Source: a virus
Reading direction: 5' to 3' (one strand)
Virus record (IMG/VR): IMGVR_UViG_3300046804_003195
Span: 1-25,941 of that record
Length of the DNA: 25,941 bases
Shown: in pieces, positions 11,832 through 25,941 of the stretch
Layout of the letters: each line of letters opens with the position of its first letter
Numbering within the stretch: position 1 is the stretch's first letter
Notes under the pieces: generated by a model
What the model was told of the DNA's origin: nothing
The model's input: only the letters and a program-made list of their open reading frames with translations
Database searches by the model: none
Program-made: the position numbers and the translations under genes

Positions 11832-13298
11832 ATGCCACAATTAAGAAATAAACAGTTAGAATATCCATTAAGTGGATCATTTACCGGTAGTTTACTTGGT
11901 ACGGCTTCCTATGCAGATTATTCAACTTCGGCATCATTTGGAATATCTAGTTCGTATTCACTAAGTTCAAGCTATAGTGTAACATCTTCTTATTCTGTAA
12001 ATTCAACTAGTGCTTCATATGCCTTATCAAGTTCAAACTCAATAAGTGCAAGTTATAGTACTACAGCATCATATTCAGTAAGTAGTTCACAGACAGTATC
12101 AAGCTCATATGCTCTAAGTTCATCATACAGTAATACAAGTACATCCGCTTCATACGCACAAACGGCTTCAAATGCTCCAGGGTACCTACCACTCACCGGT
12201 GGAACTATCACAGGAGATTTAACTATTATAGGTACGGGTTCCATAGCATACTTAAATGTAACATACGAATCTGCATCGATAATATACTCTTCAGGATCAA
12301 ACCAATTTGGAGATGCAGCAAATGATACTCAGACACTATATGGATCGGTTATAATACCGACAGGAAGTTTAACTGTGAGTGGAAGCACAACAATCACAGG
12401 ATCTCTAATTGTAACTTCAGGTATAACAGGATCTCTTTTAGGAACTGCTTCGTTTGCTAGTACAGCGTCTTACGTAACAGCGTCAAATGTCTACGGGCCT
12501 TATGGATCTAATAGCATTGTAAGTGCTTCATATGCACTAAGTTCATCCCAAGCACAGAATTCAGTAACAAGTTCTTATGCACTGACAGCATCTTATGTAG
12601 CAAATGCATCATCGTTCCCATTCACAGGTTCGGCAATAATAACTGGATCCCTAATTGTAACAGGATCAGTAACGTCAACCGACGGATTTACTGGAAGTTT
12701 ATTAGGAACATCCTCTTGGGCAAATAACGCAGTAACAGCATCTTATGTCACGGCCTCAAACGTATACGGACCTTATGGATCAAATTCAATAATATCTTCA
12801 TCCTATGCGTTAAGCAGTTCTTATTCGGTATCAAGCTCTTTTACTGTTGCCGCACAAACGGCTTCTTATGTAAACCCTTTATCCCAGAGTGTTATAATAA
12901 CAGGTTCGCTTATTGTATCGGGATCTACAAACATACAAAGCAACACGGGTACTCAGTTTTCTATGAATGCAGATACCCTTTTGATTACGGGTTCTCTCAT
13001 AGTCACTGGATCATCTATATTCACGGGTAGTGTATCAGTTTTAGGCGCAGTAAATGCAACATCGTTCACAGGATCGTTATTAGGGACTGCTTCATACGCA
13101 TCTCAAGCTCTTAGCAGTTCTTTTGCAACTACAGCATCATATTCGGTTACATCTAGTTATTCTTTATCTAGTTTATCAGCATCATATGTTTTATCGTCTA
13201 GTTTTTCAACAACTGCGTCATATGCAATAACAGCTAGCTATGCGATAACAAGTTCATATTCATTTACAGCAAGTTACATAGACGGAGGATTTTACTAA
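11832..13298 (+). CDS. Ser/Ala-rich repetitive fibre protein
   Basis: This is a 488-residue protein dominated by short repeats: a seven-residue pattern of the SSYSLSSSYSVTSSYSV type (about residues 30-110 and 440-485), with interspersed FTGSLLGTASYA and ITGSLIVTGS modules. Such GSL/GTASYA modules are frequent in fibre genes of uncultured aquatic phages and suggest a long trimeric beta-structured shaft; the exact role is inferred. Residues 211-229 and 302-320 are identical 19-residue repeats. There is no signal peptide or membrane segment. It starts two bases after the gp15-like stop and overlaps the next ORF by one base. It opens the 8.4 kb locus of fibre-type genes. It may form the long fibre shaft, with later genes providing tips; that division is a guess. 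Confidence 0.82.
   Translation: MPQLRNKQLEYPLSGSFTGSLLGTASYADYSTSASFGISSSYSLSSSYSVTSSYSVNSTSASYALSSSNSISASYSTTASYSVSSSQTVSSSYALSSSYSNTSTSASYAQTASNAPGYLPLTGGTITGDLTIIGTGSIAYLNVTYESASIIYSSGSNQFGDAANDTQTLYGSVIIPTGSLTVSGSTTITGSLIVTSGITGSLLGTASFASTASYVTASNVYGPYGSNSIVSASYALSSSQAQNSVTSSYALTASYVANASSFPFTGSAIITGSLIVTGSVTSTDGFTGSLLGTSSWANNAVTASYVTASNVYGPYGSNSIISSSYALSSSYSVSSSFTVAAQTASYVNPLSQSVIITGSLIVSGSTNIQSNTGTQFSMNADTLLITGSLIVTGSSIFTGSVSVLGAVNATSFTGSLLGTASYASQALSSSFATTASYSVTSSYSLSSLSASYVLSSSFSTTASYAITASYAITSSYSFTASYIDGGFY
12462..12518 (+). repeat. 19-residue protein repeat, copy 1
   Basis: Codes TASYVTASNVYGPYGSNSI. The amino acids are identical to those at 12735-12791, while 11 of 19 codons differ synonymously. 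Confidence 0.85.
12735..12791 (+). repeat. 19-residue protein repeat, copy 2
   Basis: Second copy of the identical 19-residue segment, 273 bases downstream and in frame, with diverged codons. Confidence 0.85.
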
Positions 13299-20758: not shown

Positions 20759-22504
20759 ATGGCTGAAACACTTTTAAGCCCTGGCGTATTTTCGATAGAG
20801 AACGACCAGAGTCAAATAACACAAGGACCGGTTGCTGCAGGAGCGGCTATTATAGGACCAACTGTAACAGGTCCTGTAAATATTCCAACGGTAATAACAT
20901 CTTATTCACAGTATAAAGCAATCTTCGGAGCTGCTTTCATATCTGGTGGTGCATCTTATGAATACCTGACAAGTATGGCGGCACTCGGTTACTTCCAACA
21001 AGGAGGTACTTCACTGCTTGTAACTAGGGTAGCATCTGGATCTTATACTGGAGCAACTGCAAATGTAGGAGCATCAGGATCAATAACTGCATTCACTCTT
21101 GAGACACTATCTACTGGTATTGTAATGAATAACTCAGGTAGCGCTACAAATGGTGCTCTAGCTTCTGGTTCTTCAGCAAACATTAGATGGGAAATCACTT
21201 CTGCAGATTCAGGATCAGGTTACTTTAGTTTAGCTATTCGTAGAGGAGATGATTATCAAAATAGCAAAACAATTCTTGAGACTTGGAATAATCTATCTCT
21301 GGATCCTAATCAGAATAACTACATTGAGTACGTTATAGGAAATCAGACTCAGAATGCAGTAGCAGATCCTACAACAGGAAACTACTACTTACAAACTACT
21401 GGATCTTATATCAATAATAGTAATTATGTAAGAGTTAAATCAGTAGCGCTTCCAACTCCAAACTACTTAAATTCATATGGTCAGCCAAATTCACAATATA
21501 CAAGCTCAATACCGCTTGTAGGTTCAGGATCGATAAATGGAGCATTTGCTGGAGCAACAGGAAATCTTTGGGGTGGACAAGGTATAGCAGCTCTTAAGAT
21601 GTTTGAAAATATTCCTACTTCTGCTGGATCTCAAACAGATAACATCCAAGGTCTAGTACCAACAAACTATGATATAGCAATTAACCTACTTGGAAACACA
21701 GACGCATATAACTTCAATACAATCTATGCACCAGGTATTAACTCACAGAATGCAACATCACAAATCACTGCACTCTTAACTCTGGCGCAAAACAGAGGAG
21801 ATAATATAGCGGTAATTGATCTTGTAGGATATGGTCAAAATATAGGCGTAGTAACAACTGCAGCTCAATCATACGATAATTCATACGGTGCTGCATACTG
21901 GCCATGGATACAAGTAAAATCAGCAGAGACCGGAAAGCTTAACTTTGTTCCAGCTTCTACGATGGTACCTGCAGTTTATGAGTACAACGACAAGATCAGC
22001 GCAGAGTGGTTTGCTCCAGCTGGTTTCACAAGAGGCGGAATGAGCACAGTACTTCAGCCAGAAAGAAAGCTTTCAATCGACGATAGGAACACTCTATACC
22101 AAGCTAAAGTAAACCCAATCGCAACATTCCCAGGAGTTGGTACAGTGATATATGGTCAGAAGACGCTCCAGCAAAAAGCATCAGCACTTGACAGAGTTAA
22201 CGTAAGAAGACTTCTGATAGCGCTTAAGGACTACATCGGTCAGATCGCAGAAGGACTTGTATTCGAACCAAACACTCAGGTAACAAGAAATAAGTTCCTG
22301 AACGCGGTGAATCCATATCTGGCAAGCGTACAGCAGAGACAAGGTCTTTATAGCTTCTCGGTAGTAATGGACGACACAAATAACACTCCATCGGTGATAG
22401 ACAGAAACGAACTGGTAGGTAGCATATACTTACAGCCAACTAGAACTGCGGAATTCATTTACTTAACATTTAACATATTGCCAACAGGCGTAACATTCGG
22501 ATAA
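20759..22504 (+). CDS. gp18: Tail sheath protein, gp18-like
   Basis: This is the contractile sheath subunit that surrounds the tail tube and drives DNA delivery on contraction. The N-terminus MAETLLSPGVFSIENDQS has the SPGV-(F/Y) start characteristic of sheath proteins, followed by GPVAAGAAIIGPTVTGPVN. The C-terminal conserved domain is clear: LYQAKVNPIATFPGVGTVIY (about 446-465), a LDRVNVRRLLIALKDYIG helix, and the final TAEFIYLTFNILPTG strand, which in the family links to neighbouring subunits. The 581 residues compare with 659 in T4; the middle, Gly/Ser-rich region (about 95-280) is the variable protruding part. It precedes the tail tube gene with one gene in between. Confidence is high. 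Confidence 0.94.
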   Translation: MAETLLSPGVFSIENDQSQITQGPVAAGAAIIGPTVTGPVNIPTVITSYSQYKAIFGAAFISGGASYEYLTSMAALGYFQQGGTSLLVTRVASGSYTGATANVGASGSITAFTLETLSTGIVMNNSGSATNGALASGSSANIRWEITSADSGSGYFSLAIRRGDDYQNSKTILETWNNLSLDPNQNNYIEYVIGNQTQNAVADPTTGNYYLQTTGSYINNSNYVRVKSVALPTPNYLNSYGQPNSQYTSSIPLVGSGSINGAFAGATGNLWGGQGIAALKMFENIPTSAGSQTDNIQGLVPTNYDIAINLLGNTDAYNFNTIYAPGINSQNATSQITALLTLAQNRGDNIAVIDLVGYGQNIGVVTTAAQSYDNSYGAAYWPWIQVKSAETGKLNFVPASTMVPAVYEYNDKISAEWFAPAGFTRGGMSTVLQPERKLSIDDRNTLYQAKVNPIATFPGVGTVIYGQKTLQQKASALDRVNVRRLLIALKDYIGQIAEGLVFEPNTQVTRNKFLNAVNPYLASVQQRQGLYSFSVVMDDTNNTPSVIDRNELVGSIYLQPTRTAEFIYLTFNILPTGVTFG

Positions 22505-23379: not shown

Positions 23380-23868
23380 ATGGCAGGACTATTAGATCCA
23401 TCAGAAATATTTTATACCGCATTTGAACCTACGGTAAGTAATAGGTTCATAATGTACATCGACGGCATCCCTTCATACATGATTAAAAAGGCGTCAGCCC
23501 CTAGTATAGAGATGGGAGAAATCAAGCTCGACCACATCAATACCTACTTCAAGATAAAAGGTAAGGCTGAGTGGAAGGACATGGAGCTCTCTCTATACAA
23601 CCCTATATCACTATCTGGACAAAGAGTATGTATGGAGTGGGTACGTCTACATCATGAATCAGTAACAGGCCGTGATGGTTACTCAGACTTTTATAAGAAA
23701 GACGTAACTCTTGACATAGTTGGTCCAGTAGGTGACATTGTAAGTGAGTGGGTAATCAAAGGCGCATTCATCAAGTCTTTCTCAGCTGGTAACTACGACT
23801 GGTCTACATCAGATCCTACAGAGTTGACACTGACTCTTGGAATGGACTATTGCATCCTGAACTACTAA
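23380..23868 (+). CDS. gp19: Tail tube protein, gp19-like
   Basis: This is the subunit of the inner tail tube through which DNA passes. At 162 residues it matches T4 gp19 (163). The fold pattern is clear: an N-terminal SNRFIMYIDGIPSYMIKKAS strand pair, EIKLDHINTYFKIKG corresponding to the T4 loop, AEWKDMELSLYNP and an EWVRLHHE helix, then the VTLDIVGP..VSEWVIKGAF strands and the C-terminal SDPTELTLTLGMDYC typical of the family. Order sheath to tube matches T4 (18, 19), with one extra gene between them. The A-rich leader is consistent with the start. Confidence 0.92.
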   Translation: MAGLLDPSEIFYTAFEPTVSNRFIMYIDGIPSYMIKKASAPSIEMGEIKLDHINTYFKIKGKAEWKDMELSLYNPISLSGQRVCMEWVRLHHESVTGRDGYSDFYKKDVTLDIVGPVGDIVSEWVIKGAFIKSFSAGNYDWSTSDPTELTLTLGMDYCILNY

Positions 23869-23881
23869 GCAATACCAAAAC

Positions 23882-24187
23882 ATGAACTTACAAGAAATAA
23901 AAAGATTTCAAAAAATAGCCGGTCTTTTAAACGAAAATGAACTAGCAGAGATTTCAACAAAATGGACTTTAGATCAAGCAAAAGCCGCGTATGAAAGTGA
24001 ATATCCAATTTTTTCTCCAGAAACATTAGCTAATTTTTCATACGACAATTTTGATAAGATAACAGGACAACCTTTAGAAGATAGAGATCAAGAGAGTCAT
24101 TTTCCAGAAGAAATATCTGAATTATGTGATGCATACGGGATTAGTGAATTTGATGATGATTTTATGTATTCTTTTGGATATAAATAA
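23882..24187 (+). CDS. Small acidic protein, 101 aa, with targeting-like N-terminus
   Basis: The function is unknown. The N-terminal 18 residues, MNLQEIKRFQKIAGLLNE, form an amphipathic helix ending in LNE and then NELAE. KRFQKIAGL parallels the last nine residues of the scaffold (ARMQKLAGL), and LNE|N is a possible prohead-protease site, reminiscent of the short N-terminal capsid-targeting sequences of T4 internal proteins. The remainder (about 19-101) is acidic and aromatic (SPETLANFSYDNFD, EFDDDFMYSFGYK). It follows the tube gene by 13 bases and is followed by a terminator. I infer a packaged head protein, but a tail-assembly role cannot be excluded. Confidence 0.75.
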   Translation: MNLQEIKRFQKIAGLLNENELAEISTKWTLDQAKAAYESEYPIFSPETLANFSYDNFDKITGQPLEDRDQESHFPEEISELCDAYGISEFDDDFMYSFGYK

Positions 24188-24318: not shown

Positions 24319-25083
24319 ATGGCAGAACAGAAATTTACGGTTCCAACAGAAATGGTCGGTCTTCCTTCAAAAGGCCTAGTTTACGAAAAATCAAATCCAC
24401 TTTCAGCAGGTGAGATCGAGATGCAGTACATGACAGCAAAGCATGAGGACATCTTAACAAACATTAATAATCTGAAAAATGGTACAGCAATAGAGAAGAC
24501 GCTTAAAGCTTTGATCTCAAGTGATGTGAAATATGATGATCTGATCCTTGGTGATAGAAATGGTCTTCTGATTGCAGCAAGGATCTTAGCATACGGAAAG
24601 GACTACCAATTCAAACTACCACACCCAGAGACAGGAGAAGAAGAAATAGTAAATGCAGATCTTCAGACAATGGAGTATAAAGTCATAGATGAGAGTATAT
24701 TCACTGGAAAGAATGAGTTTGAATTCACACTGCCTTTTTCTAAGAATAAGATCACATTTAAGCTACTTACTGTAGGAGACGATAAACGTATCGATGAAGA
24801 GGCAAAAGGCCTAAAGAAAGCGCTAGGAACTGAGCCAGGAGCGATTAGTCTGAGAATGAAGCACCAGATCACATCAGTAAATGGAGACTACTCAGCAAAA
24901 ACAGTCAGGGAGTTTATCGACACAGCGTTCATGGCAAAGGACTCAGTAGAACTTAGGAAGTATATCAATCAAATCACTCCAGACATATCTACAAAGATCA
25001 CTGTCGCTTTCAAAGACGGAAAGGAGACCGAGGTTGATTTACCAATGACAGCAGAGTTCTTCTTTCCCGGGAGTGGAATATAG
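24319..25083 (+). CDS. gp26: Baseplate hub / tail-assembly protein, gp26-like
   Basis: The 254-residue protein resembles the T4 gp26-type baseplate family (T4 gp26 is 208 residues). The N-terminus, FTVPTEMVGLPSKGLVYEKS, with LPSKG and a following EIEMQYMTAKHEDIL, is the family's recognisable start. Further regions include DRNGLLIAARILAYGKDYQF (about 94-113), FEFTLPFSKNKITFKLLTVG and a C-terminal VDLPMTAEFFFPGSGI. In T4 gp26 takes part in forming the central hub of the baseplate. The last 11 bases overlap an ORF in the +1 frame that resembles gp51, and the putative tape-measure gene comes next. That order is the one used by frameshifted tail-chaperone pairs in other tailed phages, so a chaperone role is also possible. 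Confidence 0.8.
   Translation: MAEQKFTVPTEMVGLPSKGLVYEKSNPLSAGEIEMQYMTAKHEDILTNINNLKNGTAIEKTLKALISSDVKYDDLILGDRNGLLIAARILAYGKDYQFKLPHPETGEEEIVNADLQTMEYKVIDESIFTGKNEFEFTLPFSKNKITFKLLTVGDDKRIDEEAKGLKKALGTEPGAISLRMKHQITSVNGDYSAKTVREFIDTAFMAKDSVELRKYINQITPDISTKITVAFKDGKETEVDLPMTAEFFFPGSGI
25049..25083 (+). other. Possible +1 (or -2) programmed frameshift zone
   Basis: The gp51-like frame is open from just after TGA 25046-25048, and the gp26-like frame ends at TAG 25081-25083, leaving a 35-base shift window. In gp26 phase the codons include TTC TTC TTT CCC GGG (25057-25071). TTT followed by C lets tRNA-Phe move +1 onto TTC, and CCC followed by G allows CCC to CCG. The site is a candidate only. 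Confidence 0.35.
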
Positions 25084-25354
25084 AGCAGTCTACATGCAAG
25101 AGGTTTTCGAGTTAGTCTATCATGGAAATGGTGGATTTAACTGGTTTGACGTCTGGAATATGCCAATTCCTCATCGAAAGTTTAGCCTTAAGAAGATCAA
25201 TGAATTCTTAGGAAAGGTTGAAGAACAGCGCAACCAGCAGCAACAAAAGGTTACAGAGAAGACTGACATGTCAAAGTTTAAGATACCAGACGAGGTCAAA
25301 CAGGCTATGACAAAGGCTCCGGATTTTGTTTCGAAACCAAAGCCTAAGAAGTAG
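25073..25354 (+). CDS. gp51: Baseplate hub assembly protein, gp51-like
   Basis: This is a 93-residue ORF (if started at GTG 25073), overlapping the gp26-like gene in the +1 frame. Its core, VFELVYHGNGGFNWFDVWNM followed by PIPHRKFSLKKIN, matches the pattern I recall for gp51-like proteins of aquatic T4-like phages, where it also follows gp26. T4 gp51 is needed catalytically for hub assembly and is absent from the finished virion. The tail end is Lys/Gln-rich and disordered. The start is unclear: GTG 25073 sits in a GC-rich context unlike other leaders here; ATG 25094 would give 86 residues; or the protein may be produced only as a fusion to gp26 by frameshifting. An ATATTTAT box follows its stop codon. 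Confidence 0.72.
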   Translation: MEYRAVYMQEVFELVYHGNGGFNWFDVWNMPIPHRKFSLKKINEFLGKVEEQRNQQQQKVTEKTDMSKFKIPDEVKQAMTKAPDFVSKPKPKK

Positions 25355-25363
25355 TCATGTTTG

Positions 25364-25371
25364 ATATTTAT
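25364..25371 (+). promoter_or_regulatory. ATATTTAT box upstream of the coiled-coil gene
   Basis: Context is ttgATATTTATacc, 26 bases before ATG 25390, in the 35-base gap after the gp51-like gene. Confidence 0.58.
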
Positions 25372-25389
25372 ACCTATATACACTAGAAA

Positions 25390-25941
25390 ATGGCAAATGA
25401 GAATTTACAAGGTGGAAAACAATTAGTACAAGAGTTAAAAGATGTTATAATTCTTCAAGGGGATTTTCGTGATATACTTAAAGATTCTATAAAGGAACTT
25501 CAAAAAGCTGCAACTTCATATGAAAAAATTAGAAGTAATGTAGAAAGTTTGAATAAATCAACTATTAATACTCGTGAAATTGAAAAAAATATAACAAAGA
25601 ATACAAAAGACAGGTATAATACAACTGAAAAATTAAAAAATCTAAATAGTAAATTACAAGATTCAGAAAAAAGAGAAGCAGCAAATTTTTTAGATAGAAT
25701 AAAAAAAATTCAAGAAATTGAAGCAAAAAGAATAAAAGCTAAACATTTAGGAGATGTTCAAAAGGAGACAGCTTATTCTCGATTACTTAGAATACATGAT
25801 AGTATTTTAGAAAGAGAAAAACAAAGTCTAACTAATGATCAACTTTCATATGCTCAAGCTTTAAAATCAGATAGTTTATACGAAGAAACTGATAAATTAC
25901 TAAAAGATAAACTTAATACTGAGGAACAATTAGAAAAAAGT
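25390..25941 (+). CDS. Long coiled-coil tail protein, probable tape measure (3' truncated)
   Basis: The frame is open from ATG 25390 to the window end (184 codons). The visible part starts MANENLQGGKQLVQELKDVI and is almost entirely charged helix with coiled-coil spacing, rich in Lys, Glu, Asn and Gln, with heptad-like stretches (EKLKNLNSKLQDSEKREA and onward) and no membrane segment yet. Tape-measure proteins have long helical coiled-coil N-termini and are encoded directly after the tail-chaperone pair, which is the position here. In T4 the tail-length protein is gp29, part of the hub. The full length and any lytic domain are outside the window, so the call depends on position and helix character. 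Codons are AT-rich compared with the sheath and capsid genes. Confidence 0.62.
   Translation, partial: MANENLQGGKQLVQELKDVIILQGDFRDILKDSIKELQKAATSYEKIRSNVESLNKSTINTREIEKNITKNTKDRYNTTEKLKNLNSKLQDSEKREAANFLDRIKKIQEIEAKRIKAKHLGDVQKETAYSRLLRIHDSILEREKQSLTNDQLSYAQALKSDSLYEETDKLLKDKLNTEEQLEKS

Follow-up and report, generated by a model that had tools for sequence, protein, structure and literature searches.

A gp26/gp51 gene pair ahead of a putative tape measure gene and its probable expression, by programmed +1 ribosomal frameshifting, as a short and a long tail assembly chaperone

The DNA analyzed here, referred to as the window, is a viral genome fragment of 25,941 nt (positions 1-25,941 of the record IMGVR_UViG_3300046804_003195). 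It carries a myovirus tail module in which genes for the sheath and the tube, a 101-aa ORF and a gp26-like gene are followed by a gp51-like +1-frame ORF and then by a putative tape measure gene, and two overlapping ORFs in different frames sit between the tail tube and the putative tape measure genes (Table 1). The PF12322 domain of the window gp26 scored 40.8 bits against a gathering cut-off of 24.5, and databases annotate the gp26-type gene as 'baseplate hub'. For the extension ORF no Pfam or PHROGs family rose above noise. The putative tape measure gene occupies the same place as the annotated tape measure gene of Flavobacterium phage immuto; the tape measure ORFs of two relatives (L008 and L021) matched no tape-measure family. 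No tRNA genes were found in the window. The 101-aa ORF between the tail tube and gp26 genes (23882-24187) matches no known family.

Table 1. Tail genes and junction features in the window.
Feature	Position	Strand	Basis
Tail sheath gene (context)	20759..22504	+	PF17482; phrog_23, E 1.3e-72
Tail tube gene, gp19-type (context)	23380..23868	+	phrog_4542, E 8.3e-22
gp26-type gene, 254 aa, 28.4 kDa, proposed short chaperone form	24319..25083	+	PF12322, E 2.7e-10; phrog_150, E 7.3e-16
Last +1-frame stop before the overlap, TGA, 5' limit of any +1 reading	25046..25048	+	sequence
gp51-type extension ORF, +1 frame, stop 25352-25354	25049..25354	+	own HMM from extension alignment
Proposed shift site UUU_CCC in gp26 phase, then GGG 25069-25071	25063..25068	+	TTT 56/56, CCC 55/56 in sub-family A
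GTG, start-like, +1 frame, within the overlap; missing in most relatives	25073..25075	+	junction comparison
gp26 TAG stop; +1 reading places TAG inside EYR codons (TAT AGA)	25081..25083	+	sequence
ATG, read as internal Met, fusion residue 259, mid predicted helix	25094..25096	+	leader score; helix 252-267
Putative tape measure gene, start 25390, runs off contig end	25390..25941	+	position; coil-rich sequence

In gp26 phase, positions 25054-25083 read GAG TTC TTC TTT CCC GGG AGT GGA ATA TAG, ending with the gp26 stop at 25081-25083, and the gp51-like frame overlaps gp26 in +1. This frame is open from 25049 to the stop at 25352-25354 (101 codons), and the distance from the end of the blocking stop to the end of the gp26 stop is 35 nt. 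5' of the conserved core of the extension, the only ATG, GTG or TTG codons in the +1 frame are the GTG at 25073 and the ATG at 25094. An earlier note on this DNA had described the +1 overlap with its 35-base stretch, TTC TTT CCC GGG in gp26 phase, and GTG and ATG 25094 as the sole +1 starts; the coordinates and codons were recomputed and found to be correct. Among 24 ORFs of the window, the string TTT CCC GGG was found in-frame once. CCC accounted for 11 of 294 proline codons (3.7%) and GGG for 17 of 595 glycine codons (2.9%) in the remaining 23. Together with the recurrence of the overlap in relatives, these figures speak against a chance arrangement.

Relatives were collected by IMG/VR scans with gp26, a gp26 alignment and an extension alignment and by tblastn against named phages, which gave the loci L002-L186; two of these scans kept the best 80 of 597 and the best 80 of 386. 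The set comprised 187 sequences with 185 closed gp26 ORFs, and the HMM paired an extension with 178. Merging of identical 503-nt junctions left 122 distinct junctions, and merging at 93 nt left 109. The two ORFs overlap in 115 of the 122 sampled junctions, in every case in the +1 frame and in none in another frame, and are separated in the remaining 7. The distance from the gp26 stop to the conserved core was 1 modulo 3 in 115/115, despite lengths that ranged from 13 to 64 nt. Among these 115 are Flavobacterium phage immuto, Microcystis phage Mel-JY01 and a 484-kb uncultured phage. A single-frame gp26-51 fusion was found in none of the 122 distinct junctions; the window is a fragment, and its genome may hold a second copy. 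In the distant loci L024-L028, L030 and L031 the extension is beyond the reach of the HMM and was read by eye, which revealed a +1 extension in Bacillus phage SP-15, Listeria phage LIS04 and Streptococcus phage SagM-GXN1.

The 109 distinct 93-nt junctions comprised 56 of sub-family A, to which the window belongs and whose gp26 ends in FFFP, and 53 of sub-family B (FFWP, FFYP etc.). Aligning the junctions of relatives, as the earlier note had proposed, brought out a conserved shift site. In sub-family A it consists of TTT (56/56) followed by CCC (55/56), with L010 and its 48-nt insert as the sole exception; elsewhere in gp26 of this sub-family, CCC makes up 16 of 407 proline codons (3.9%). The sub-family B site is TTT TTT T in 50 of 53 junctions, and the remaining three have CTT T, CTT C or CTA T. 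Both sites would fit a peptidyl-tRNA-Phe that moves +1, from UUU to UUC or UUU. The median distance from the blocking +1 stop to the proline codon is 17 nt in A and 29 nt in B, and because the stop is so close the +1 entry point is narrow in most junctions.

The codon that slips may alternatively be CCC_G, with tRNA-Pro moving from CCC to CCG as in Listeria phages and with the same product. This variant draws on the near-invariant CCC of sub-family A and on four junctions with CCC TAG, which resembles the CCC_UGA sites of those phages, but it leaves unexplained the wobble T of the third Phe codon (56/56), which a CCC shift does not need, and sub-family B, which lacks CCC and has UUU_U at the homologous place. 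The wobble argument is qualified in that the T is also required by the +1 Phe codon (TTC) if +1 reading began earlier. CCC GGG encodes Pro-Gly in both frames and may be partly kept for that reason, which weakens the case for CCC itself driving the shift; such dual coding would itself still need +1 reading. We consider a shift on CCC possible but rather unlikely. Shifting by -2 was disfavored from the window sequence, since after a move of two bases back the tRNA of UUU would meet UCU and that of CCC would meet UUC. When the 40-60 nt downstream of the site were folded in 30 junctions per sub-family, alongside control stretches, no stimulatory structure stood out more clearly than in the controls (mean z for the junctions -0.04 to -0.87).

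The T-rich sites also bear on transcriptional slippage, by which the polymerase and not the ribosome would make the long form. This could operate on the runs of 7 to 9 T that occur in sub-family B and in a few junctions of A, but most A junctions have no more than 6 T and the window overlap (25049-25083) holds no base run longer than 3, yet the +1 arrangement is the same. Slippage is regarded as very improbable.

If gp51 were instead a separate protein, it would most simply arise by coupled restart at ATG 25094, 10 nt downstream of the gp26 stop (25083). Of the 56 A junctions, 52 have retained an ATG two codons ahead of the core, among them the window's, and for this reason a separate start at ATG 25094 is possible for the window phage alone. 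The same ATG is present in 1 of 53 B junctions. In B, 49 of 53 junctions have none of ATG, GTG and TTG from the site to the conserved core and 51 have no ATG; in A, 4 of 56 have no ATG 3' of the site. Upstream of the core, the entire +1 ORF is devoid of ATG, GTG and TTG in 21/53 B and 4/56 A junctions (25/109 together), in line with the absent start codon that the earlier note had proposed to look for in relatives. A start codon for the second gene that is conserved across A and B, as coupled overlapping genes require, was not found. Selection on the codons between the gp26 stop and the ATG also argues against restart. Over these three codons, 18 of 37 changes in sub-family A were synonymous in the +1 frame against 8.5 (sd 2.0) expected, a figure reached in 0 of 2000 shuffles. 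The corresponding values in sub-family B were 33 of 96 against 25.5 for three codons (reached in 29 of 2000 shuffles) and 40 of 100 against 27.4 for four codons (0 of 2000); the test uses nearest-neighbor pairs, which are not mutually independent. The sub-family A codons that separate the gp26 stop from the sole conserved ATG evolve as +1 coding sequence.

The leader of ATG 25094 was at the 12th percentile among internal ATGs and that of GTG 25073 at the 13th. Median leader scores in sub-family A were -7.8 for the gp51 ATG, -4.7 for internal ATGs, +5.4 for gp26 starts and -0.7 for tape measure starts. However, the annotated window starts at 13298 and 22507, both coupled tightly to an upstream stop, have equally low scores, which is compatible with restart at ATG 25094 and makes the leader argument weak when taken alone. 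On balance, coupled restart is judged improbable.

The gp26 and gp51 genes lie apart in seven relatives (L012, L013, L063, L180 and L117-L119). L012 and L013 have an insert that resembles an endonuclease remnant. In L063 (3772-4347) and L180 (2400-2975) an intact ORF occupies the +1 site, immediately after the gp26 stop, and the gp51 ATG overlaps the 3' end of this ORF. The inserted ORF of L063 is a homing endonuclease of phrog_314 (E 5.5e-8, PHROGs) with no match in Pfam; from its motif, we take it to be of the GIY-YIG type. In L117-L119 a short insert follows in-frame after the stop. The gp51 of all seven has its own ATG, a feature that would suit restart in the window as well, but this ATG lies upstream of the FP..EYR segment and not at the counterpart of ATG 25094. 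None of the seven has kept CCC; all read CCA or CCG, then GGA. Relatives with the two genes apart, each with a proper start, had been named in the earlier note as evidence against a frameshifted pair. They do exist, but in the gp26 tree they nest inside the +1 clade at no fewer than two places, which together with the lost CCC and the inserts marks them as natural losses. The fusion is therefore dispensable in some lineages, and since the window sits among such relatives (nearest L010, L013 and L117), loss and regain by recombination near it is possible. L010 and L015 keep the +1 overlap with a 48-nt insert (L010:3763-3830) that lies between the gp26 end and the extension and contains a second FFPG, and, as a point against the frameshift reading, have CCA at the site; this insert is like the 3' end of the L011-L014 insert (EYQHCPFFPGPEYR versus EYIHCPFFPSLEYR). 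A ribosome hop over the L010/L015 insert, which has FFPG on both sides, was considered and rejected, as the repeat is its sole support and a UUU_C shift or a start at ATG ATG is equally adequate.

Programmed +1 ribosomal frameshifting probably yields gp26 (28.4 kDa) and gp26-51 (39.2 kDa, 344 aa) as a short and a long tail assembly chaperone; the computed mass of the fusion agrees with the 37-39 kDa predicted beforehand. The earlier proposal of a frameshifted chaperone pair is the best fit to the relatives, given the +1 frame of all overlapping junctions, and this frameshift reading, which rests on comparative evidence, is well supported. The gp26 and gp51-like ORFs would form one coding unit that is read in two ways. 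Most ribosomes would stop at the gp26 TAG and release the short chaperone, and a fraction would slip +1 at UUU_CCC. Probably it is the peptidyl-tRNA-Phe that would move from UUU to UUC (25064-25066), while the ribosome waits at the rare, slowly decoded CCC codon. Decoding would then continue in +1 with CCG (25067-25069) GGA GTG GAA and join gp26 to the gp51-type extension. Both forms would serve as chaperones of the tape measure protein, the product of the following gene, and the extension would be expected to recruit tail tube subunits by analogy with lambda gpG/gpGT. We infer the occurrence and efficiency of the shift, the identity of the slipping tRNA and the chaperone function.

A structure of the fusion was predicted with a mean pLDDT of 87.3, the ten-residue means being mostly 93-98 in the gp26 part and 59-85 in the extension. 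A predicted helix (residues 252-267) begins at the first post-shift residues and passes through Met259, so that a restart at this candidate start codon would begin mid-helix, which is a further point against it. When the fusion model was re-aligned with 992 chains (Foldseek candidates), the HK97 tail assembly chaperone 2ob9 came first with Z 5.4 (80 residues, rmsd 3.7, model residues 1-93), followed by Z 4.1 for the next row. Residues 1-101 against 107 chains gave Z of at least 5 only for 3fgx (6.0), 3klu (YqbN, 5.9) and 2ob9 (5.3), with the next at 2.0. We take 3fgx and 3klu to be tail chaperones of the same class as HK97 2ob9. Foldseek against the PDB returned nothing at E<=0.001 for either the fusion or its N-terminal domain, and a PDB sequence search with the gp26 alignment and T4 gp51 returned nothing of note. 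The modeled N-terminal domain of gp26 resembles a chaperone fold at middling Z scores of 5-6, below 8, and the likeness is suggestive only.

The link to the G/GT chaperones drawn in the earlier note is favored by this model, in which the N-terminal domain is closest to the HK97 chaperone and the two like structures. A passage in a review describes lambda gpG/gpGT as an overlapping ORF pair before the tape measure gene with a short and a frameshifted long form (PMC5009743). Lambda shifts -1, whereas the window pair is in +1, as are all overlapping junctions of its relatives, so the X_XXY_YYZ pattern of -1 sites does not apply to it. No sequence match of the window pair to lambda-type chaperones was found, the match to the HK97 chaperone being at the level of the fold only. 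The same review gives +1 shifts at CCC_UGA and CCC_U sites in the Listeria phages PSA, A118 and A500 and mentions a tail protein of the haloarchaeal myovirus HSTV-2 as 'very likely +1' (PMC5009743). The Listeria cases extend capsid and tail shaft proteins, whereas the window case extends a chaperone; HSTV-2 shares the +1 direction with the window but is an archaeal virus.

T4 gp26 and gp51 both matched PF12322 (8.8e-64 and 3.9e-52) and phrog_150. T4 gp51 has a C-terminal extension and also matched phrog_634, the family of a separate 55-aa ORF of KVP40. From these matches, the two T4 proteins are regarded as paralogues, with gp51 as the long form in one gene; the genes lie on opposite strands. 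Short and fused long tail assembly chaperone genes in T4-like phages are attributed to Vladimirov, Gautam and Davidson (Virology 2022, as cited in PMC10885494 and PMC12846349). The window gp26 shares PF12322 with both T4 proteins, but T4 has two separate genes and the window one gene plus a +1 extension. The remark in the earlier note that T4 is not known to use a frameshifted pair needs correcting in that the two T4 genes are paralogues, gp51 being the long form, as PMC10885494 reports from Vladimirov et al. By hhalign the gp26 alignment was not significant against single T4 gp26 or gp51 (E 0.36 and 0.32), and the family link to T4 rests on PF12322 and phrog_150. The extension of the window clade matched T4 gp51 directly but weakly (E 0.079), at the right residues, and did not match phrog_634. 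The +1-branch and -1-branch extensions matched each other at E 1.4e-5, and the -1-branch extension matched T4 gp51 residues 205-243 at E 1.9e-5.

The -1 branch comprises seven phages (KVP40, the cyanophages S-SM1, P-SSM5, S-RIM14 and ACG-2014j, and Cr30 and phiN3) with TTTTTTC or TTTTTTT at the Phe-Phe codons. As in the window, a short extension ORF follows gp26 in a different frame, and this frame stays open through a Phe-Phe site close to the end of gp26; unlike the window, these phages use the -1 frame and have a T TTT TTY heptamer in 7/7. Poly-T signals for -1 shifting are noted for T4-like chaperone genes in a passage of PMC12846349. In the gp26 tree the T4 rows and KVP40 are on long branches. 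Xanthomonas phage XacN1 and Stenotrophomonas phage RAS14 (L030, L031) have a -1 extension after T TTT TTT A; this pair is placed near the +1 branch with weak support.

Across this chaperone family the gp26/gp51 extension is likely expressed in four ways at one junction. The modes we favor are -1 shifting at U UUU UUY in the cyanophage/KVP40 branch, +1 shifting at UUU_Y, a duplicated gene with a built-in extension in T4, and two separate genes. The +1 UUU_Y mode would include the Flavobacterium, Microcystis, Bacillus SP-15 and Listeria LIS04 phages, and the separate-gene mode would have arisen once homing endonucleases had invaded the +1 site. The direction of the shift appears to have reversed about a single Phe-Phe codon pair, with the two-form arrangement largely preserved.

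According to a passage in the review cited above, the frameshift mechanism of tail chaperones is conserved 'except T4', and T4 is listed as the long-tailed phage without a frameshifted tail chaperone (PMC5009743); the relatives point to such a state in the same gene family. The direction found here, +1, is the less usual one. Natural variants are many and include losses after homing-endonuclease insertion, so the switch in shift direction and the need for a covalent fusion become testable. No report of +1 frameshifting in gp26/gp51 was found in the literature searched, although the Virology 2022 paper, known through its citations, may mention it. The sources cited already cover the chaperone role of this family in T4-like phages as well as -1 shifts in some of its members; the +1 branch with its natural losses is added here.

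Expression by frameshift would also account for gp51 being missing or shortened in the public records of immuto, SP-15, LIS04 and ACG-2014j. The extension is annotated with 36 and 39 aa in immuto and SP-15 and is absent in LIS04 (L021, L026, L027). In Synechococcus phage ACG-2014j (L192:2430-2662) gp51 is unannotated, and a -1 ORF with TTTTTTC has no start before its conserved part. A possible further -1 case is L025 (LR756511, a 595-kb uncultured phage), in which the open -1 frame at the gp26 end reads DEFKFWRYLMDEQFFF...
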